From Bacteroidales bacterium (lineage in GTDB: Bacteria; Bacteroidota; Bacteroidia; Bacteroidales; P3), in the NCBI GenBank assembly GCA_017616895.1, contig JAFZXE010000016.1:28048-92047 (forward strand): DNA of 64,000 bases, in the 5' to 3' direction. The translations under genes were made by a program, and so were the position numbers. Under the pieces are notes generated by a model. It had not been told where the DNA came from. It worked only from the letters and a program-made list of their open reading frames with translations, and did no database searches. Shown here piece by piece: positions 53,956-64,000 of the stretch (positions are counted from its first letter, which is position 1; each line of letters begins with the position of its first letter).

Positions 53956-54887
53956 GCCGCATAGAGACACCCCTGCGTCGTGTCTCTCCGTTCCAGCTCT
54001 TTCTCCACCATCGCGCCTATCTCCTCGTTGCGTATGAGGCGTCCGTCGCTGCGTCGCCAGCTGCGTTCGGGCATCGCCTGGTATCTTGGCGGCACCTCGC
54101 CGGCGAACCGCTCTATCGCTATGTCCGGCCGCAGGCGCTCCACGATGTCGCACACCAGCGCGATATATTCTTCCAGCTCGAAAGCGTGTCCGCGCCGCTC
54201 CGGCGGCTCTTCCGCCAGCCGCGTCCCCTTGAGTATCTGCAGCTGGTGGAACTTCACCGTGTTTATCTGCAGCGTGTTTATTATCTCTGCCGACGCCCTC
54301 ATCTCATCGATGCTCTCGCCCGGAAGTCCCAGTATGAAATGGCCGCCGCAGTGAATCCCGTGTGCTGCGGTGGCTTCGATGGCGTGGCGTGTGGCGGCGA
54401 AGTCGTGTCCGCGCCCCACCAGCTCCAGCGTTTTGTCATAGCAGCTCTCTATGCCGTATTCCACGCCCACGAACCCGCGCTCCTTCAGCGAGGCGATATA
54501 ATCCAGCTTCTCGTCGTCTATGCAGTCGGGCCGCGTGCCGACTATCAAGCCCGACACCATCGGGTGGTTCAGCGCCTCCTCGTAGCGTTCCTTCAGCACT
54601 TCCAGCGGCGCGTAGGTGTTGCTGTAGGTCTGGAAGTAGGCCAGGTAGCAGGCACTCTTGCGGTAACGCCAGCGGTGGAACTTGATGCCCTCGTCAATTT
54701 GCTTGGTGATCGACTTCACCTCACGGCAGTACGAGGGGTTGAACGCCTCGTTGTTGCAGAACGAGCAGCCCCCGACCCCTTTCGTCCCGTCGCGGTTAGG
54801 ACAGCTGAAGCCCCCGTCGATGGAGAGTTTCTGTGCCCGTCCGCCGAAGAGCGTCTTGAAATAACTGGCGTAGGAATTATACCGCAT
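53949..54887 (-). CDS. TIGR01212-family radical SAM protein, YhcC-like
   Basis: A 312-residue radical SAM protein. The cluster-binding cysteines are spaced as [16 protein letters not shown] (near 28-43), the long first spacing of the YhcC/TIGR01212 family, followed by [10 protein letters not shown] and [12 protein letters not shown]. The chemical role is not established. Two ATGs stand in tandem (54890 and 54887); a TATCTTTG promoter box on the minus strand lies about 30 bp upstream. The 3' end overlaps the NamZ-like gene by 7 bp in convergent orientation. Its first 287 bp are duplicated at 56261-56547. Confidence 0.88.
   Translation of the reverse strand: MRYNSYASYFKTLFGGRAQKLSIDGGFSCPNRDGTKGVGGCSFCNNEAFNPSYCREVKSITKQIDEGIKFHRWRYRKSACYLAYFQTYSNTYAPLEVLKERYEEALNHPMVSGLIVGTRPDCIDDEKLDYIASLKERGFVGVEYGIESCYDKTLELVGRGHDFAATRHAIEATAAHGIHCGGHFILGLPGESIDEMRASAEIINTLQINTVKFHQLQILKGTRLAEEPPERRGHAFELEEYIALVCDIVERLRPDIAIERFAGEVPPRYQAMPERSWRRSDGRLIRNEEIGAMVEKELERRDTTQGCLYAAQ
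54601..54887. repeat. 287-bp direct repeat, copy 1 (in the radical SAM gene)
   Basis: This segment matches 56261-56547 with about 12 differences and no gap. It is the 5' part of the intact radical SAM gene. Confidence 0.95.
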
Positions 54888-55125: not shown

Positions 55126-55171
55126 CATTGTGAATTATTACGAAAAAAGTCGTAACGAAAAAATGCGTAAT

Positions 55172-56239
55172 ATGGAAAACCCTTTCAAATTCGGCACAAT
55201 CGTCGAGGAGGAATATTTCACCGACCGTGTGAATGAGGTGGCCTATATTAAAGAGTTTGTACGAAGTGCCAACCATCTGGTACTGATAAGTCCTCGTCGT
55301 TTTGGCAAGAGCAGCGTGGTGGCAAAAGCCGTAAAGCAGAGCGGTCGCAAGCATATCACGGTGAACCTTCAGCAAGCAACCTCCGTGTCCGACCTTTCGG
55401 CAAAACTGCTGCGTGAGTTTTTCAAGGTGCACCCGCTTGAACGCGTCCGTCACCTGATAACCCATTTCCGAGTCATCCCCACCCTCTCCACCAATCCCGT
55501 AACCGGAGCGATAGAGGTGTCGTTTCAGCCAAGCGCTAACGAGGTGATCTTGATTGAGGACGTGCTGACGCTCATCGAGCAGTCGCATACTGGGAACGAC
55601 CGTATGATTGTGGTGCTTGACGAATTCCAAGAGATAAAAGATCTGGCACCAAAACTCGACAAGCAGTTGCGCTCCATCATGCAGAACCACAAGAACATCA
55701 ACTATATCCTGCTTGGAAGCCAGGAGAGCATGATGACCGACATCTTTGAGAACAAGAAATCGCCCTTCTACCATTTCGGACAGCTTATGCGGCTGGGAAA
55801 ACTGCCGCGAGAGGATTTCCACCAATACCTCTCCGCACGGCTCTCAAGCATATTCCCCGACAGAAGCGACGAATTGGCCGACCGCATATTGGACTACACC
55901 AGCTGTCACCCCTATTATTCGCAGCAGCTCGCAGCCAACGTGTGGCAGATGGGAGTGTTGCAGCCGGGCCTTGAGAAACCTTTCGAAGCGGCAATCAGCC
56001 AGATCGTCACCGCACATGGGTTGGATTATGAGCGCCTGTGGATGAACTTCAACCGCACTAACCGTTGGATTCTAAAGACACTTGCCGCCAACAAGCCGTT
56101 GCAGTCGGGCGGACACAGCACCAGCACGATCTATAGTGCGCTGAAGCGTATGCAGAAAGACGGCTACGTCATCTACTCCGATCGCTACGAGCTCGAAGAC
56201 CCGTTCTTCCGCGAGTGGATTGCCGTCAACAACGAATAG
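55172..56239 (+). CDS. archaeal-type STAND-like ATPase
   Basis: About 355 residues from the ATG at 55172 ([19 protein letters not shown]). The P-loop is [11 protein letters not shown] near 41-51 and the Walker B strand [11 protein letters not shown] near 150. The sensor-like region LLGSQESMM and the C-terminal winged-helix-like part fit the archaeal ATPase (ATPase_2) group of the STAND superfamily. Such genes are often single, mobile-looking and of unknown function; roles in defence or regulation have been proposed for relatives. It stands alone between two copies of a 287-bp repeat. Another start at 55163 would add three residues. Confidence 0.8.
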
Positions 56240-56260
56240 GCATCATTCCGCCTCACTTTT

Positions 56261-56547
56261 TCCAGCGGCGCGTAGGTGTTGCTGTAGGTCTGGAAGTAGG
56301 CCAGGTAGCAGGCACTCTTGCGGTAACGCCAGCGGTGGAACTTGATGTCCTCGTCAATCTGCTCGGTGATCGACTTCACCTCACGGCAGTACGAGGGGTT
56401 GAACGCCTCGTTGTTGCAGAACGAGCAGCCCCCGACCCCTTTCGTCCCGTCGCGGTTAGGACAGGAGAACCCCCCGTCGATGGAGAGTTTCTGAGCCCGC
56501 CCGCCAAAGAGCGACTTGAAATAGCTGGAGTAGGAATTATACCGCAT
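56261..56547 (-). pseudogene. truncated copy of the radical SAM gene 5' end
   Basis: The first 95 codons of the radical SAM gene are repeated here with about 12 base changes over 287 bp, including the three cluster cysteines. After that the frame runs antisense into the 3' end of the ATPase gene and stops at 56185. There is no promoter box upstream. It cannot make a working enzyme and is best read as the second arm of a duplication. Confidence 0.9.
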
Positions 56548-56794
56548 GGAATCTATCAGCTGTTAATATGTTAGAAAGGTATAAGGGATTAAAAGGTAAC
56601 TGAAAATTATATCAAAATTTGCATTGGACATTCTAGATTTGAAATCAAGCGCAACGGGAATCCTATGTAGCGTTCGTGTGTTTGTTCTGTCGAGGGCGAG
56701 AATTACAAATTCTCTTGTTAAACCGTTGTGGATGACACATCCGCAACAACGGGCAAATCCGTCACAGTTGGAACGATATCGTTTTTTTGACATT
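56548..56794. other. gene-free stretch with several short hairpins
   Basis: It contains the palindromes GATTTGAAATC (56636-56646), GAGAATTACAAATTCTC (56698-56714) and GGATGACACATCC (56730-56742). The last two share the stem-loop skeleton GRATKTGTMATYC on the minus strand, with paired positions changing together. The GC-rich hairpin around 56723-56750 may end the cassette operon. Confidence 0.6.
56723..56754 (-). terminator. hairpin downstream of the cassette array
   Basis: On the minus strand CGTTGTTGCGGATG, loop TGT, CATCCACAACGG form an imperfect long stem followed by TTTAAC, about 40 bp after the last immunity gene. Its core hairpin is repeated at 62639-62657, so it may be a dispersed element and not only a terminator. 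Confidence 0.45.
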
Positions 56795-57271
56795 TCATTC
56801 AGCCATCTCCAATATTCTATAATGAATAACGCTATTGTCCTTTATGAAATACAGGACACTCCAAATATATCGCTTATACACCGTAACACACTCCCAGTCT
56901 TCCGCTTTGTAATATAATAAACTTACATCAACAAAGGGATATCCATAAACACCAAACTCATCATCGTCAAAAAAAACGGACATGGATAAGTGATGATTGT
57001 CATATTCTGTCGAATCTGTACTATATTTCAAGACTAAATTGTTATTGTCAATTAAGAGTCCTTCAAACATATCATGAAGCATCACCCCAACAATCTTGGA
57101 TGTATCGGGTATTATCCGGACGCCATTTGACGAATTCACAAAAGCTCCATTTACAATCATTGAATCGGTCATGCGTATAGCATCGTTAAGGATTGTATTC
57201 TGGGCATGCGGATTCCATTCAATGCAACAAAAAACAACGAAAAGAACTATTGTCAAAAATGCCTTATTCAT
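56795..57271 (-). CDS. exported partner of cassette 1, putative immunity
   Basis: A 158-residue protein with a signal peptide (MNKAFLTIVLFVVFCCIEW, cleavage near HAQ). The mature part is acidic and strand-rich. No family was recognised. It starts 17 bp after the zincin-tipped Rhs cassette at 57289-58149, the position of an immunity gene. Export implies protection in the periplasm. Confidence 0.65.
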   Translation of the reverse strand: MNKAFLTIVLFVVFCCIEWNPHAQNTILNDAIRMTDSMIVNGAFVNSSNGVRIIPDTSKIVGVMLHDMFEGLLIDNNNLVLKYSTDSTEYDNHHLSMSVFFDDDEFGVYGYPFVDVSLLYYKAEDWECVTVYKRYIWSVLYFIKDNSVIHYRILEMAE

Positions 57272-57288
57272 GTCACAGGTAAATTACA

Positions 57289-58149
57289 CTATTTCACAAA
57301 TCCATTCAACCAAATGGTACTGCCTCCGAATGAGAAAGGAATTTTACCATTGTACGGACTTTGAGGATATGCTTCCCTTGTTGGCAGCCCAAGCTCCCTT
57401 CGATAGATATTCACTCTATTAACAGCATCACCAGTAAAACCTCTTTTGTAGTAGTTCTCGTCTGTGCAGGAATAAACCTCACCATTAGGAATATTATCGG
57501 ATAACCCAAAATAGCCATGCTGGAATTCGTGAAGAAAAACCATTCCAATATCAAACGTTGCAGGTTCATTACCTGTAAAATCAGCGAGATCTATTAACAG
57601 CCTGGATTCACTAAATTCTACCGATCTAGGATCTGCTTTACCTGCATTTACATTATCGGCACCATCCAGGTAGCTAACTATTATGTTGAATGAATTGTCG
57701 CTAATAGCTTTTAAGACATCTTCTCTTGCTGTCTTTGAGCCACCATTGATACAAGGTGAACCATCTTCTCCCTTTTCATACACTAATCTACCCTTTTCAT
57801 TAACATATAAATTTAGTCCAGTTTTATTCGACAAACTAGATAATAGTTGAGAATCGCCTTTTTCTTGATTCTGACGCTTTATCATAATACTGTCACCATT
57901 AGGATCCACCAACTTCATCGGATTCCAAGCGCAGTAATTATACGGTGATAAACTTGGATACTTGTCAGACATCGGGTCAACACTCAACCATATACTCAAA
58001 TCCGAATTATAGTACCTCGCACCGAAGTAGTAATAGCCTGTTTCTGAGTCCTTCTCCTTGCCCGAGGAGGCTGAATGGAAAATGACGGTGTTTTTCGGCC
58101 TGATTTGGTTCGAAAAAGTGGTGGTTTTATATGTGAATTGGGAGAGCAT
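57289..58149 (-). CDS. Rhs-core cassette 1 with HEFQH zincin-like tip
   Basis: A 286-residue protein: leader (LSQFTYKTTTF) of about 28 residues, the Rhs core end (about 29-85), then a variable domain. The tip contains HEFQH at 207-211 followed by GYFGLSDN, a HExxH zinc-metalloprotease signature. It lacks the thousands of residues of YD repeats that make the Rhs shell, so it is an orphan tip, either a donor for recombination or a toxin carried by another system. The likely immunity gene is 17 bp downstream. Confidence 0.82.
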   Translation of the reverse strand: MLSQFTYKTTTFSNQIRPKNTVIFHSASSGKEKDSETGYYYFGARYYNSDLSIWLSVDPMSDKYPSLSPYNYCAWNPMKLVDPNGDSIMIKRQNQEKGDSQLLSSLSNKTGLNLYVNEKGRLVYEKGEDGSPCINGGSKTAREDVLKAISDNSFNIIVSYLDGADNVNAGKADPRSVEFSESRLLIDLADFTGNEPATFDIGMVFLHEFQHGYFGLSDNIPNGEVYSCTDENYYKRGFTGDAVNRVNIYRRELGLPTREAYPQSPYNGKIPFSFGGSTIWLNGFVK

Positions 58150-58165
58150 TTAGAACAGTCATTCA

Positions 58166-58741
58166 TTATTTAGTTGACTTTGCGCCAGATTGCAAATCAG
58201 GTAAAACGGGAATATTATTGTTTCCTATACACATTTTAAAATCAATCCTAGTTTCAGCAAAGGGCCCCACATAAGCATCTAATATGCTTTGAGGTGTTAT
58301 GTCGTCACGATTTACGCACTGTAAAGAGTATGTGCTGGTATCCAATATCGTTTTTATAGTTTGCAACAATGCTCGGTCTGATGGGCTACGCCAATTCATT
58401 GTGGTTTCCGTACGCAATCCTTCATTAATCGTCAAATAGAACCAGCTGGTATCCACCTCTGCAATCTTTATGGACAATGGATTTGCGTTGTTTGATGGCT
58501 CCCAAATTGCATCGCACTCTATTCGAATACGGATTGCGTCATTGGAACTCATCGAATAATCATATATTTGACTAGAAACACATTCATCTATTGCTTTTTT
58601 GACATCATCATGAGGTTTCAAAACATCAATTTCGAAATGATCCACAATCACATCGTCTTTTTGCCCATCTTGATTGTCAAAACATGAGCACAATGCAGCG
58701 AAAATGATTATAGCCCATATTGCTCGTAAAACATATTTCAT
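58166..58741 (-). CDS. lipoprotein partner of cassette 2, putative immunity
   Basis: A 191-residue lipoprotein: signal MKYVLRAIWAIIIFAALCSC with lipobox ALCSC. The rest shows no known family. It begins 6 bp after the HELFH-tipped cassette at 58748-59611 and is therefore its likely immunity protein, anchored in the periplasmic face of a membrane. Confidence 0.65.
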   Translation of the reverse strand: MKYVLRAIWAIIIFAALCSCFDNQDGQKDDVIVDHFEIDVLKPHDDVKKAIDECVSSQIYDYSMSSNDAIRIRIECDAIWEPSNNANPLSIKIAEVDTSWFYLTINEGLRTETTMNWRSPSDRALLQTIKTILDTSTYSLQCVNRDDITPQSILDAYVGPFAETRIDFKMCIGNNNIPVLPDLQSGAKSTK

Positions 58742-58747
58742 ACTGTT

Positions 58748-59611
58748 TTATAATTGTTTTAATAAACTTTGACTGAATAAATAATTACCAGGGTTATATC
58801 CATAGCCATTATAAGTACCTTTATAATTAGCCATGGAATTCCTTCGGAAATTTCTAACCAAAAAACCAAAACTATTACTGTTAAACCCTTTTGTTAGATT
58901 CATGCCATGAGCATTGTATTCAGCATTATTCTTACTTCTAATTCCAGTTGTCATATTATTAGATATAATGCTGCTAAAAACATAGGCTTCGACTTCGTTG
59001 TAGACGGTTTTTGGAGTTCTTCCGTGGTCATCCTGATACGCATGAAAAAGTTCATGCGACAAAGCCTCTAATGTATTCGATTCTCCACCGACCAAGGATA
59101 CCTTGTTTTTTGAGGCGCTATAGTTTCCATCCCCTGATTTTGCATCTACGGCAACAGTATATCTCTGTCTACTCGTTGTTAATCTGTCAATCACCTTTTT
59201 CCCAGCTGAATGTTTTAACATTTTGTCAATGTTGTTTTTTACTTTACTGGCCTCCTTCCCTAAATATCCATCCATGGGAATTCTTCCATGTTTTAAATAG
59301 ACATGACCATTTCTATAGTAATATGTTTGATTTCTATCTTTAATGAGAATTTCTGCTCCGTTTGGATCAACTATCTTCAAAGGATTCCACGCACAATAAT
59401 TATAGGGACTCAAACTTGGGTATTTGTCTGCCATCGGGTCAACACTTAACCACAAACTTAGGTCTGAGTTATAATACCTCGCACCGAAATAGTAATATCC
59501 TGTTTCCGAGTCTTTCTCCTTGCCCGAGGAGTCCGAGTTGAAAACAGGGGTGTTTTCAGGCCTTTTTGAGGTCATGAAATTGGAGCTTTTATATGTAAAT
59601 TTCGGGCACAT
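58748..59611 (-). CDS. Rhs-core cassette 2 with HELFH zincin-like tip
   Basis: About 287 residues from ATG 59611, chosen because the leader then matches the other cassettes (CPKFTYKSSNF); an in-frame TTG at 59677 is possible. After the Rhs core end the tip contains SHELFHAYQDDHGR with HELFH near 186-190 and a downstream NEVEAYVFS whose Glu could be the third zinc ligand. This is the classic pattern of a gluzincin-like peptidase. The partner lipoprotein gene follows after 6 bp. Confidence 0.82.
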   Translation of the reverse strand: MCPKFTYKSSNFMTSKRPENTPVFNSDSSGKEKDSETGYYYFGARYYNSDLSLWLSVDPMADKYPSLSPYNYCAWNPLKIVDPNGAEILIKDRNQTYYYRNGHVYLKHGRIPMDGYLGKEASKVKNNIDKMLKHSAGKKVIDRLTTSRQRYTVAVDAKSGDGNYSASKNKVSLVGGESNTLEALSHELFHAYQDDHGRTPKTVYNEVEAYVFSSIISNNMTTGIRSKNNAEYNAHGMNLTKGFNSNSFGFLVRNFRRNSMANYKGTYNGYGYNPGNYLFSQSLLKQL

Positions 59612-59758
59612 TTGACGTATTATTTCACACAATGTTTTTTGCCCTCGTAGGAAGTGTAAGATTGCATAATCCAACACAAAGGTTCCCGGTGTAGTCGATT
59701 TTCAATATATTGAGAAATGCTGTTTTAGGCAACAAATGCCGCACAAAAAGAACAACTG

Positions 59759-60424
59759 TCATCTATTGTATTCATTGCGAAGATATTTAAAACTATCAGT
59801 CAGACACCGCATCGTTGAGTCATCGAAGGACATGTTGTGCAATGGAAGTAATTTTTTCACCACATCGTTACGATATAGATTCTCCACACTTATAATATCC
59901 AATTCTTTTTCCTGTGATTCAAGCTTTAATATAATATCCTGAATCGAAAAGCCCTGTTCCATCATTTTAAAAATAGAAGTCATAAAAGAATAATCCAAAC
60001 CACTGTCAAATACCTCATTGGATGAATATTTGTCCAAATTCCATTGTAATCTTGCTACGACTCTGTTCCAATAAAAACAAAAAACCACTTTAAAATCTGA
60101 AGAGTTTTTATTGGGTCTATGGGAATCTTCGACTGCACAATCTGTTTCATACAGCGTGAATGGCCAGCAATAGATGATTAAATTCGTTGAATCTTCACAA
60201 ATTTCGACTAAATATTGGGAGCAACCAATCGATAAGAAAATTGTATCTCGGAAATCGTCTTTTGTTTGCAGAATAATATTTATTTCACTGGAGCCAATTT
60301 CCCATTGCGAAGCCATGTCACTGTAAGGACATTTTAGAGTGTTGTTTGTAACATCAAATACAAAATCTTGAGAGTGGCAAATACCCTCAATTAACACCAG
60401 TACAACAAAAAACAATTGTTTCAT
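59759..60424 (-). CDS. exported partner of cassette 3, putative immunity
   Basis: A 221-residue protein with a signal peptide (MKQLFFVVLVLIEGICHSQ). It overlaps the stop of the upstream cassette by 4 bp, so the two are translationally coupled. The mature part has several Trp/Cys-bearing strands (LIIYCWPFTLYETDCAV) and a C-terminal helical half. No family was recognised. Confidence 0.65.
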   Translation of the reverse strand: MKQLFFVVLVLIEGICHSQDFVFDVTNNTLKCPYSDMASQWEIGSSEINIILQTKDDFRDTIFLSIGCSQYLVEICEDSTNLIIYCWPFTLYETDCAVEDSHRPNKNSSDFKVVFCFYWNRVVARLQWNLDKYSSNEVFDSGLDYSFMTSIFKMMEQGFSIQDIILKLESQEKELDIISVENLYRNDVVKKLLPLHNMSFDDSTMRCLTDSFKYLRNEYNR

Positions 60425-61293
60425 CTTTTTATATTTATGGTGGGTGATTTAAATTCCTCATAAGTGTACCAATCCCTTATTCTTTTTTCCCCACCCATCG
60501 GTTTGCTTGTTCTCGATGTTGCACCAGCATACTGGGCAAGGCTCCACGAAGCATCCCTTGAACTCTCCAAATCGAATCGCTTTGATCCAGAAGCATTAAG
60601 TGAGTATGCATTCGATATAATTAAACATCCCGTGGACCAAGAGCGCCCCGTCCCATAGTGTATCCTGACCCCGCTTGACACGCCACCACCTGATAGTCCA
60701 ATATAATTATACCAACGTTCCCCCTTTCCAAGATATGACGTATATGTTCCCGGACCAACTTGCTTGTGTTTTTTACTGAACGACGAGGGTTGAACGAAGA
60801 AACCTGCTTTTTTCTCACCAGATAAATGATACACACCGAATGATTCATCGTTATCCTTGGAGTCTTCGAGTAATATCATATTCACTCTGTTTCCATAGAC
60901 TCCTTCAGAAAATGAATAAGTTCTAGTGTCTCCATCCTGTCCCGTAACATTAATGACATCGTTTCCTTTGGAAATAATATGATCCGATATTTCCCACTTT
61001 TTATTTTCTTTATTAAACAGCACACTAAGTGTATCCATCCCATTCGGATCCACAATCTTCATTGGATTCCATGCACAATAGTTGTATGGTGACAGACTTG
61101 GATATTTGTCCGCCATCGGGTCTACACTCAACCAGATTGACAAGTCGGAGTTATAATACCTCGCCCCGAAGTAGTAATAGCCTGTTTCTGAGTCCTTCTC
61201 CTTGCCCGTGGATAACGGACACAAAGTGGCAGTGCTTTCAGGCCTTTTTCGGGGTCTGAAATTTGTGTTTTTATATGTGGATCTAATGTGCAT
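60421..61293 (-). CDS. Rhs-core cassette 3 with H...STGC tip
   Basis: A 290-residue protein: leader HIRSTYKNTNF, Rhs core end (about 29-85), then a tip in which GVYHLSG is followed by VRIHYGTGRSWSTGCLII. The order His-Gly...Ser-x-Gly-Cys recalls L,D-transpeptidases and the DUF5675 group, where the Cys is the nucleophile. This suggests a cell-wall or protein cross-link target outside the cytoplasm. The assignment is by motif only. The start ATG 61293 gives a leader of the same length as in the other cassettes. Confidence 0.78.
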   Translation of the reverse strand: MHIRSTYKNTNFRPRKRPESTATLCPLSTGKEKDSETGYYYFGARYYNSDLSIWLSVDPMADKYPSLSPYNYCAWNPMKIVDPNGMDTLSVLFNKENKKWEISDHIISKGNDVINVTGQDGDTRTYSFSEGVYGNRVNMILLEDSKDNDESFGVYHLSGEKKAGFFVQPSSFSKKHKQVGPGTYTSYLGKGERWYNYIGLSGGGVSSGVRIHYGTGRSWSTGCLIISNAYSLNASGSKRFDLESSRDASWSLAQYAGATSRTSKPMGGEKRIRDWYTYEEFKSPTINIKR

Positions 61294-61379
61294 TTATTAT
61301 ATTTCACACAATGCTTTTATATGCCTTTATCGAAAGTGCCAGATTGTGTAATCCAGCACAAACTGGTTTATGATACAGA

Positions 61380-61724
61380 TCATCTCAATAATTCTGGAGT
61401 TAAATATATAGTATCTTGAACACAAACAGAATGGGCGGACGTATCTCTTAAAACTATCCTTACCGTATTAATTGATGTATCAATTGATACAACATTGTTA
61501 TACAATTCATAATTGCCTATAATCCTCATCCTCCCGCTGCTATCTAGCAAGCAGATCTGCATCATATTCTGTGACGTTGCGTTCGCTGATATATAATAAA
61601 AACAAATTTTGTTTCCATAATATGGATACTCGTATATTAACTCTTTTTCTACTTCAGGAAAAAGAGAACAACCTATAATTGTGAAAAAAAAAGTAAAAAA
61701 ATAAGGGAATATCTTCTTTTTCAT
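61380..61724 (-). CDS. lipoprotein partner of cassette 4, putative immunity
   Basis: A 114-residue lipoprotein (lipobox IIGC near 17-20, then SLFPEVEKEL). It overlaps the stop of the type 44-like cassette by 4 bp. The mature part is a small strand-rich domain with no recognised family. Confidence 0.65.
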   Translation of the reverse strand: MKKKIFPYFFTFFFTIIGCSLFPEVEKELIYEYPYYGNKICFYYISANATSQNMMQICLLDSSGRMRIIGNYELYNNVVSIDTSINTVRIVLRDTSAHSVCVQDTIYLTPELLR

Positions 61725-62566
61725 TTTTTTATTGATTTCTCATAATCAGCGAAGCCTCTTCTAATCCACATTTGATCTCTTGGATCATCACCATATGGTG
61801 GCAATAGTTGCGGGATAATTGGAGCCGTACTCATTGGATCTGGCTTTGGAATAAGATGAATATTTTCATATGTTTGCCATTCAGACCTTGATGTTCCTGA
61901 CTTTATTTGATAGTTTCCTGCTTGTCGCAAAATAAACTCTTCAGAAAATAGCCCAAATGCTTTTGCCACGTATCCAAAATGATGGTTTCCTAAATCCTGA
62001 GATTCCATCTTGTTACCATTATATAAAAAGGTAGTTCTATTATCATTCCCCAAGCCATAGATGGTTTTTTTATTATTTTTTAAATCCCAGTCTCCTTTTG
62101 TTTTTACTAACTTTCTAAACCTAAATGGATTCCACATGGATTTTGCCCTTTCTGCATTCTTTTTTAGTAAATTAGAGTAAATATAATCAGCCTTTATCTC
62201 TCCGCCCAACTCACCTAAACGTGTCATCTTGTTATTTTCACTGAGGTATACACTATTATCCGTCTTGTCATTTCTAATAACATCTCCATACCTATTTACT
62301 ACTATCGTATCACCATTCGGATCCACAATCTTCATTGGATTCCATGCACAATAGTTATATGGACTCAAACTTGGGTACTTGTCCGACATAGGATCGACAC
62401 TCAACCACAGACTCAAATCAGAGTTGTAGTACCTTGCTCCGAAATAGTAATAGCCTGTTTCTGAGTCCTTCTCTTTGCCCGAGGAGTCCGACTGAAAAAC
62501 AGGGGTGTTTTTCGGCTGGTTTTGGGTCGGAAAAGAGTCTGGTTTATATGTGAATTGAGATGGCAT
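61721..62566 (-). CDS. Rhs-core cassette 4, polymorphic toxin type 44-like
   Basis: About 281 residues from ATG 62566, where the leader matches the others (PSQFTYKPDSF); an upstream in-frame start at 62650 would cross a hairpin. Beyond the Rhs core end the C-terminal 100 residues read NHHFGYVAKAFGLFSEEFIL...GTSRSEW...GDDPRDQMWIRRGF, which matches my memory of the Bacterial toxin 44 family. Its partner is a lipoprotein with a 4-bp overlap. Confidence 0.8.
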   Translation of the reverse strand: MPSQFTYKPDSFPTQNQPKNTPVFQSDSSGKEKDSETGYYYFGARYYNSDLSLWLSVDPMSDKYPSLSPYNYCAWNPMKIVDPNGDTIVVNRYGDVIRNDKTDNSVYLSENNKMTRLGELGGEIKADYIYSNLLKKNAERAKSMWNPFRFRKLVKTKGDWDLKNNKKTIYGLGNDNRTTFLYNGNKMESQDLGNHHFGYVAKAFGLFSEEFILRQAGNYQIKSGTSRSEWQTYENIHLIPKPDPMSTAPIIPQLLPPYGDDPRDQMWIRRGFADYEKSIKK

Positions 62567-62638
62567 TTTACCGAGTTTGTTCTGTCTTTTTTTTCTTTTT
62601 AGTGGAGTGCCGGATTCGGAAATCCAGGGGGATGGAGT

Positions 62639-62657
62639 TGCGGATGACACATCCGCA
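62639..62657. repeat. hairpin TGCGGATG-ACA-CATCCGCA
   Basis: A perfect 8-bp stem with a 3-base loop, upstream of cassette 4. Nearly the same hairpin occurs at 56729-56744, downstream of the array. Confidence 0.75.
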
Positions 62658-62696
62658 ATAACAGGAATTCCGCAACATTCAGAATAACAGATACGA

Positions 62697-63230
62697 TTAC
62701 GGAAATGTGGGCGGGTATGGTTCTACATTGTATCTTTTCTCATTAATAAGTCGATTAATAAAAAACGAATTGTCAACATTATATGCGGGGTATTTTATAT
62801 GATAATTTACAATTTGATCAATAACAGCCTGAAATGATTTATCAAACTCTTTTTTTTGACCGTCAACTATCAAACAAGATGTATTATTAGATATGGTTTC
62901 GGATGTAAGCGAATGTGACATATTCACCACATGATATGTACAATCTGTTTCAATAAACACAATTTGAATCATAGCGGTTGGCATATCTCTATAACAAGAC
63001 ATACCTTTCGCATCTTTAAATGAGCGGATTTTCGAAGACAAATATTTTGTAAATGACGTATCTCTGATTTCAATTTTGTTCTCCGGTGGGCAATACCTCT
63101 GAAACAAGTAAACAGGGACATCGGCCACTCTGAGTACAGGATCATCATAGTATATGATGACATCTTGTGCTTGTAGCTGTGTAGTGGACAATATTGTTAT
63201 TGCGATAATAAAATACAAACGCTTTCTCAT
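62697..63230 (-). CDS. exported partner of cassette 5, putative immunity
   Basis: A 177-residue protein with a signal peptide (MRKRLYFIIAITILSTTQLQ, cleavage near AQD). It starts 27 bp after the HEMTH-tipped cassette. No family was recognised. Like the other four partners it should act in the periplasm. Confidence 0.65.
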   Translation of the reverse strand: MRKRLYFIIAITILSTTQLQAQDVIIYYDDPVLRVADVPVYLFQRYCPPENKIEIRDTSFTKYLSSKIRSFKDAKGMSCYRDMPTAMIQIVFIETDCTYHVVNMSHSLTSETISNNTSCLIVDGQKKEFDKSFQAVIDQIVNYHIKYPAYNVDNSFFINRLINEKRYNVEPYPPTFP

Positions 63231-63257
63231 ATCTCAAAATATTATAAAATGTAATAT

Positions 63258-64000
63258 CTATTGAAAGGAGTCTTCCACCTTATGGGTAGAAGTCGGTCCA
63301 GCTACCGATACAAGCTTTCCTCTATGATTTTCCCTTGTTACCTCGCCATCTTGTATTTCACCCAATAATTTCGCGGTTCTCTGCTCAATTCCAGTAATTA
63401 CTTTTTTCTCCTCCTCAGATGAATATGGGTTATCAACACTCTTTTCTAAAGACTGTATAAAAATCCCCCATTCTCTATCTGCAACATCTTTTCCATACTT
63501 AGAATAATTCTTCTGATATTTATTTAAGGCATCGTCATAATGTGTAGCATGCGTCATTTCGTGGTTTAGTATAGTTGTTGGTGATAACAAATGGCCCTGA
63601 TCTGTTTCTAGGCCTGCAGTAGGACACCAGTTGATTGTTTTCGTAGAGGGGTTGAAAGAAGATGTATTAGAAGGATTGCTGATAAACGAGATTGTATAAA
63701 CATTTTTTGAATTCTTTAATTGCCCGTATCTACCTCCACAATTGTGAGAGTCAAGATGTCTTACTGCTGTATAGAATTGTTTCTTCTGTTCAGAAGTTGT
63801 TCCTTTTGCGAAAACAATTTTATTACCATCAGGATCCACCAACTTCATCGGGTTCCAAGCGCAGTAGTTGTATGGACTCAAACTTGGGTACTTATCTGAC
63901 ATCGGATCCACACTTAACCACAAGCTCAAATCGGAGTTGTAATATCTTGCTCCGAAATAGTAATAGCCTGTTTCTGAGTCCTTCTCCTTGCCCGAGAAAG
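63258..64000 (-). CDS. Rhs-core cassette 5 with HEMTH zincin tip, 5' end missing
   Basis: The frame is open to the right edge (first visible residues FSGKEKDSETGYYY), so the start lies outside. It may be another orphan cassette or the end of a full-length Rhs protein. After the core end the tip has ILNHEMTHATHYD, a HExxH motif, and later EEEKKVITGIEQRTAKLLGE and RENHRGKLV, a combination I associate with M91/NleD-like zinc peptidases found as toxin tips. The partner gene is 27 bp downstream. Confidence 0.82.
   Translation of the reverse strand, partial: FSGKEKDSETGYYYFGARYYNSDLSLWLSVDPMSDKYPSLSPYNYCAWNPMKLVDPDGNKIVFAKGTTSEQKKQFYTAVRHLDSHNCGGRYGQLKNSKNVYTISFISNPSNTSSFNPSTKTINWCPTAGLETDQGHLLSPTTILNHEMTHATHYDDALNKYQKNYSKYGKDVADREWGIFIQSLEKSVDNPYSSEEEKKVITGIEQRTAKLLGEIQDGEVTRENHRGKLVSVAGPTSTHKVEDSFQ

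Follow-up and report, generated by a model that had tools for sequence, protein, structure and literature searches.

It is a long-standing question how polymorphic toxins exchange their tips, and several described systems come close to the locus reported here, an array of five cassettes, each consisting of an Rhs core end joined to a toxin tip, at one end of a 64,000-nucleotide stretch of DNA (the window) from the assembly GCA_017616895.1 of an uncultured Bacteroidales bacterium of gut type (contig JAFZXE010000016.1, positions 28,048 to 92,047). In the orphan Rhs arrays described in 2009, core end, tip and downstream gene follow one another and tips are common to detached and attached forms, with core fragments of variable length and homologous recombination involving circular intermediates (PMC2935791). 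Orphan CdiA-CT/CdiI modules place toxin and immunity gene behind a short conserved junction stretch (VENN), some being exactly bounded by it, and are mostly devoid of a translation start; the accessible text makes no mention of a linked recombinase (PMC3150448). Polymorphic toxins of the TcdB/TcaC (SpvB) type have standalone toxin-immunity cassettes, and the XerC/D recombinases noted there stand near polyimmunity loci without toxin cassettes, not near toxin-tip arrays (PMC3482391). The rAID arrays of Bacteroidales combine a predicted tyrosine recombinase with co-oriented short AT-rich genes and conserved intergenic motifs, the genes being orphan immunity genes without toxins (PMC12247911). Elsewhere, 26 orphan tips have been called pseudogenes (PMC13183296).

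Our locus resembles the 2009 arrays in its succession of core end, tip and downstream gene and in having tips in both detached and attached form, whereas the 14 cassettes of its genome that stand behind the first of an array (followers) have a uniform core of 57 codons and a clade of recombinases is linked to the arrays. It shares the short conserved junction of the CdiA-CT/CdiI modules, but the followers of its own genome have a conserved ATG, and with the SpvB-type toxins it shares spare toxin-immunity cassettes and, in congeners, the domain plan of the full-length gene. The comparison with rAID is one of layout: recombinase, co-oriented short AT-rich genes and intergenic motifs are similar, but every unit in the window has an Rhs-core toxin tip and the recombinase is divergent from the array. 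As in integrons, the recombinase points away from the array, a promoter lies between them and the followers of this genome have no promoter box (here a sequence motif only), whereas the integron-integrase model TIGR02249 gave 59-74 bits against a cut-off of 265 in all four recombinases scanned. The system is arranged like an integron but, judged by its integrase, is not one. A literature search whose coverage lacks most subscription journals returned no title or abstract start naming a recombinase tied to Rhs tip arrays.

The explanation that we favor, with somewhat better than even confidence, is that these arrays form a reservoir, integron-like and associated with a recombinase, from which a large SpvB-Rhs surface toxin would draw tip-immunity cassettes; the window would contain one arm of it. 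A cassette would comprise the 57-codon core end, a toxin tip, a probable exported immunity gene and an intergenic module, and in relatives with intact loci a predicted promoter faces the cassettes on one side and, on the other, a tyrosine recombinase, a gene with a type IX secretion system (T9SS) sorting tail and a full-length Rhs lipoprotein gene. Recombination at the core start or close to it would carry tips from one array position to another and to or from the full-length gene, with the dedicated recombinase assisting as the presumed catalyst. Transcription from one promoter at the array head would extend over the first cassette and those behind it, ensuring that their immunity genes are expressed, and the follower tips would probably be spare parts, not secreted products, with delivery falling to the full-length protein. 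A stronger version, for which we put the chances a little short of even, is a site-specific cassette system for polymorphic toxins, in which an Rhs-specific recombinase would insert, remove and re-order cassettes at the core start and could load them onto the adjoining full-length SpvB-Rhs gene, making the change of warhead programmed and not a by-product of homologous recombination. If true, this would bring three things under a single mechanism: the capture of cassettes as in integrons, immunity banks of the rAID type and Rhs toxins. Since one recombinase clade stands at a near-constant position next to tip arrays in many family genomes, the question can be put to the test with a single enzyme and short DNA sites.

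Cassettes of the window and of the genome

The array consists of five co-oriented genes on the minus strand, each joining a 57-residue Rhs core end (SGKEKD...VDPNG) to one of five different tip domains of 188-205 residues; all five match TIGR03696 (Rhs_assc_core) above the cut-off (E 5.7e-15 to 1.7e-16). The tip starts after VDPNG or VDPDG, and a partner gene then follows in all five. Cassette 1 (57289-58149; leader 58066-58149, core 57895-58065) has a tip with HEFQH, and its partner, a probable immunity gene at 56795-57271, encodes a hydrophobic N-terminus. Cassette 2 (58748-59611; leader 59528-59611, core 59357-59527) carries HELFH in its tip and is followed by partner gene 2 (58166-58741), while the tip of cassette 3 (60421-61293; leader 61210-61293, core 61039-61209) contains a YkuD-like motif pattern and precedes partner gene 3 (59759-60424). 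The tip of cassette 4 (61721-62566; leader 62483-62566, core 62312-62482) is an Ntox44 domain (PF15607, 54.3 bits, cut-off 24), with a lipobox-like partner at 61380-61724. Cassette 5 (63258-63998; core 63825-63995), whose tip has HEMTH (Peptidase_M91 24.6 bits, cut-off 25) and whose partner lies at 62697-63230, is incomplete because the window end is also the contig end (G000:C28:28048-92047; contig of 92047 bases). The partner genes, too, are on the minus strand. The last three 2-kb bins of the window have 37% GC, the remaining bins 42-59%.

A sequence-only reading of this DNA had proposed five Rhs-tip cassettes on one strand, each with its own partner gene, and the coordinates and TIGR03696 matches bear this out; the five-cassette array is real. 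Its "invariant 171-bp block" does not hold as DNA, the copies being 80-86% identical to the reference copy and 74-92% identical among the 21 genome copies, and it is the 57-residue protein that is conserved. The switch to a new domain at VDPNG stands for the window cassettes, with VDPDG as a second form of the junction.

In all, the assembly, with 2.6 Mb on 31 contigs and a completeness of 88%, contains 21 cassettes in five clusters, on contigs C4 (6), C10 (2), C24 (3), C25 (5) and C28 (5, the window); those on C10 and C28 reach the contig end within core sequence. The open frame is kept in all 21, and the 210 pairs of cores give pN 0.059 and pS 0.713, a ratio of nonsynonymous to synonymous divergence (dN/dS) of about 0.027, so that the set is not a product of chance. 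Variability at the three codon positions of the 21 cores is 0.081, 0.027 and 0.287; the core is conserved as protein, not as DNA. Three of six related tip pairs have dN/dS values of 0.14, 0.14 and 0.19, the remaining three being saturated. Low values in core and tip alike mean that selection has preserved the cassettes as functional proteins, which need not be the short ones.

By motif patterns, the 21 tips include nine with HExxH, three with HExxxH, one with a JAMM pattern and three with a YkuD-like pattern. One tip (C24:23594) is counted under both HExxH and the YkuD-like pattern, and its HExxH is probably not catalytic because the tip is of JAB type. Ntox44 (the tip of window cassette 4) and Toxin-JAB1 (two tips) were found above their cut-offs, and the M91 matches fall below theirs. 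A script called a partner for 18 of the 21 cassettes, leaving three without, and all 18 partners have a hydrophobic N-terminus, as opposed to 17 of 55 control open reading frames. By position and N-terminus the partner is probably an immunity protein, and since the partners look exported, the targets of the tips probably lie outside the cytoplasm, in the envelope.

Recombinase, promoter box and full-length Rhs genes

The sequence-only reading had not foreseen a linked tyrosine recombinase and promoter. Genes adjoining the lead (first-in-array) cassettes of C4 and C24 match phage-integrase SAM-like domains, and in the congener G041 the corresponding product is a complete tyrosine recombinase, 332 residues long (Phage_integrase, E 4.5e-24). 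The residues R, HxxR, H and Y, the catalytic set of tyrosine recombinases, are conserved in the alignment wherever it is not truncated. Among 190 genomes of the family, relatives of the array recombinase are at least 45% identical, other tyrosine recombinases about 30%, and in the tree 13 array-type sequences fall on one side of a branch with support 100/100, against 11 others. Viral contigs yielded only four distant recombinases (27-34% identity).

An Rhs core lies divergently upstream of the array-clade recombinase in all 20 copies that could be assessed, that is, in which the N-terminus and enough upstream DNA are present, and in none of eight other recombinases. The locus survey covered 30 copies, 22 of the array clade and the eight others; 17 of the 22 were assessable, to which the copy on C24 of the window's genome, one at G041:C3 and a second copy in G120 were added. 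Not all 20 are independent, as the second G120 copy repeats the first and the C24 copy is near-identical there to G014:C12. The five non-assessable clade copies are at a contig edge (L151, L162) or have an unmatched N-terminus (L161, L166, L169), and further pieces of clade recombinases in L185-L188 are likewise non-assessable.

In 18 intervals the recombinase start and the core are 218-355 nt apart, and 17 of these intervals contain a TANNTTTGC box, which corresponds to the Bacteroidetes -7 promoter motif, against an expected 0.56. The box stands 80-83 nt from the recombinase start (71-72 nt in the window's own lineage) and was found within 250 nt of none of the 14 followers of this genome; the layout is one of recombinase, predicted promoter and cassettes. 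In one array of L114, a metagenome-assembled genome of Paludibacteraceae from horse faeces, several cassettes differ from these followers in that each has a TANNTTTGC box of its own, about 90 nt ahead of the core. No tRNA gene, as in tRNA-integrated islands, was present in ten array sources, and Rfam gave no match at gathering score in four array loci.

Behind nine of 12 full-length recombinase copies there is a gene with a T9SS sorting tail, one of the nine being only 23.6% identical and another standing some 2 kb farther away. At four loci in three genomes (G041:C33, G041:C3, G087 and G114) the recombinase, a T9SS-tail gene and the full-length Rhs gene are contiguous. The conserved T9SS-tail gene between recombinase and full-length Rhs gene is seen at L135:12392-13771 and in its homologues.

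Among the matches listed, the core is present in at least 39 of 59 genomes of the genus, 12 of these 39 have an SpvB domain, and open frames of 2913-3115 residues with a terminal core occur in at least six. The congener gene L135 (G041, 3115 residues) combines SpvB, FG-GAP, TcdB_midN and RHS repeats with a start that by eye is lipoprotein-like, and so matches the TcdB/TcaC (SpvB) delivery-type domain plan of signal, SpvB, integrin-like repeats, TcdB-middle and RHS, which was not detected in the window's own assembly. As a marker of a type VI secretion system (T6SS), VipB (PF05943) was above its cut-off in none of 17 genomes, a result that is not decisive, as the model may miss Bacteroidetes sheath proteins. 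The earlier contrast with classical Rhs loci, by which only tips are present here, is weakened because congeners have full-length genes adjoining such arrays. More than 120 residues precede the core in 20 of 98 collected cassettes, full-length genes included; from this set onward cassettes that agree in the core and in the first 60 residues of the tip were collapsed to one, and loci L001-L021 and L026, which repeat cluster loci, were left out. Cassettes were found by patterns that miss unusual cores, and one cassette of G120 was found by reading the translation.

Junctions, boundary modules and exchange

For the junction, seven full-length-type, seven lead and 16 follower sequences were compared, the other 15 of 45 being unclassified. 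In six-base bins, similarity between full-length-type and follower genes of the window's lineage is 0.03-0.36 just before the core and 0.78-0.93 from its first base. The junction is sharp and falls at one and the same codon in all three classes of gene. The last bases before the core (CTTTC) are common to lead and full-length-type genes; the junction of cassette 5, CTTTCTCGGGC, is shared with both of these classes, and most followers have ACTCCTCGGGC. Core remnants longer than 57 codons occur in the lead cassettes of C24 and C25. Third-position divergence is 0.22 in the first six core codons compared with 0.28-0.54 in other bins. The core start also has a palindrome-like CTTTCWCSGGCAAAG, which can be taken as no more than a candidate for the crossover site because it overlaps constrained codons. 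The TTTTTTGATNCTTTTTCTTCAAAAAA of some lead regions, considered as a shared recombination site, was not found before followers. In followers of L034, L038, L040, L055, L076 and L114, DNA close to TTGAACCNNCCAGCACATAAAACC lies 60-70 nt before the core; these followers, from other lineages, often have no ATG in view.

In followers the leader before the core forms the right-hand end of an intergenic module that contains the hairpins GTTGCGGATG-TGT-CATCCGCAAC and GAGAATT-TGT-AATTCTC. Over its 27 codons in the 14 followers of this genome, dN/dS is 0.83 and much alike in other frames, and variability is even over the codon positions (0.194, 0.199, 0.196). Its DNA difference is 0.31, compared with 0.52 at fourfold sites of the adjacent core (bootstrap difference 0.205, 0.130-0.277), and the conserved thing in the leader is DNA, not protein. 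Module and leader also stand without a core at the left ends of C24 and C25, and in truncated form in C10. A role of the leader as secretion signal was rejected on the lack of codon-level conservation and on these core-less stubs at array ends, and the earlier suggestion that the cassettes may be secreted by themselves is likewise not supported, no export signal having been seen in the leader.

In the window, modules on the minus strand are found at the downstream end of the array (56611-56754, with the palindrome at 56725-56747) and between cassettes 5 and 4 (62516-62659, palindrome 62637-62659), where the module match at 62516-62627 enters the leader of cassette 4; a weak partial match (58098-58214, minus strand, E 2.2e-8) enters the leader of cassette 1. 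The hairpin modules of this genome stand at cassette ends, the place of attC sites in integrons. The palindrome TTGYGGATGNNNCATCCRCAA has eight places in the genome, all in the clusters of C4, C24, C25 and C28 (reversed control 0), and was on this account rejected as a genome-wide repetitive extragenic palindromic element or general terminator. A 262-bp module query had 24 matches in the same genome, all within the five clusters, and among 13 other genomes of the genus it matched G041 alone, three times, two of these at contig ends. Accordingly, the module is specific to this lineage and not general. The boundary modules of L144 and L145 (G041:C16 and C35) coincide with contig ends, as though assembly had stopped at this repeat.

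Tips are common to short cassettes of this genome and longer Rhs genes of congeners. Window tip 2 is 73% identical to a tip on a longer Rhs gene (L029, G038), the tip C4:60215 is 61% identical to that of L043, and C24:23594 is 54% identical to that of a 2916-residue gene of G014; window tip 5, present in two of 190 genomes, was discarded as an exchange marker. Two cassettes of L114 have at least 400 identical nucleotides upstream and cores that are 71% identical, and in G120 a stretch of 869 nt at 98.3%, spanning part of the recombinase, the promoter and the leader, ends about 30 nt into the core, beyond which the cores differ. Between G027 and G021 all 97 available upstream nucleotides are identical and the cores 84%, and C24 of this genome is 96-100% identical to G014:C12 from -50 to -350, 82% in the last 50 nt and 80% in the core, with no tip match. 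Near-identical promoter-leader DNA before different cores and tips shows that cassettes have been exchanged, and several breakpoints are near the core start. The L114 repeat was withdrawn as proof of site-specific cassette duplication because its left edge lies inside the core. Of the proposal that tips are exchanged with an outside full-length Rhs gene, the core block as the place of exchange is upheld.

Competing explanations and neighboring genes

Several observations weigh against the reservoir. No full-length Rhs gene was detected in the assembly, which is 88% complete and has its C10 and C28 clusters cut in the core; searches of it with RHS_repeat, SpvB and the first 1600 and 890 residues of a congener's protein each gave 0 matches, and such genes were detected in congeners. 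Both array-type recombinase genes of this genome are truncated (211 and 137 residues matched), and a recombinase was not seen at three of the five clusters, two of them cut by contig ends. The N-terminally incomplete recombinase of L166 has no core within 1.5 kb upstream. Of the 13 other genus genomes, 12 gave no match to the hairpin module, which is therefore no general part of the system, and a recombination site common to lead and follower boundaries was not established. Breakpoints also fall further inside the core, at about +60 in L102 and near +100 at the left edge of the L114 repeat, a pattern expected of homologous recombination. The system of this genome may be decaying, or may rely on genes missing from the assembly.

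The alternative that survives best is classical C-terminal displacement, in which orphan tips arise and are exchanged by homologous recombination between core repeats, the recombinase being an uninvolved neighbor. It agrees with the published model of homologous recombination (PMC2935791); the core repeats supply the homology, both edges of the L114 repeat are inside core blocks, as is the L102 breakpoint, and 21 cassettes have been kept although the recombinases of this genome are truncated. We nevertheless regard it as unlikely, because the array recombinases form one monophyletic clade with a near-constant head-to-head place, the 14 followers have a uniform core length where that model would lead one to expect variable lengths (PMC2935791), and the synonymous divergence of the cores speaks against frequent recent homogenization. 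An immunity bank, in which the immunity genes are the main reason for keeping the arrays and the toxin parts are carried along, would be in line with the likeness to rAID in recombinase, co-oriented AT-rich genes and intergenic motifs (PMC12247911), with the 37% GC of the array bins and with the probable export of the partners; it is improbable, since tips and cores are intact and under purifying selection and rAID arrays hold orphan immunity genes without toxins (PMC12247911). That the short cassettes work as independent proteins, whether by secretion or inside the cell as toxin-antitoxin pairs, would fit the AAATG and open frame kept in all 14 followers, the promoter box at the array head and the expression of Salmonella orphan rhs toxins from their own promoters (PMC7043789), but is very improbable given a leader that is not conserved as protein and has no visible export signal, partners whose exported look points to a target probably outside the cytoplasm, and followers of several other lineages that have no ATG before the core (by eye; TTG is possible).

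The surroundings of the arrays gave some further observations. Adjoining the array end in the window, two copies of the 5' portion of a radical SAM gene (54600-54887 and 56260-56547) are 96% identical, and an ATPase_2-type gene lies between them (55163-56239). Between divergent arrays there are an AbiEii gene with a DUF6088 gene, an AAA_14-DUF4143 ATPase and a Bro-N gene, as in a defense hotspot (L025:6231-7849, L024:6253-7530 and L022:11904-12767). A 758-residue frame on C4 (L022:15488-17764) matches sigma-54 domains together with Peptidase_M23 and LysM, an unusual combination.

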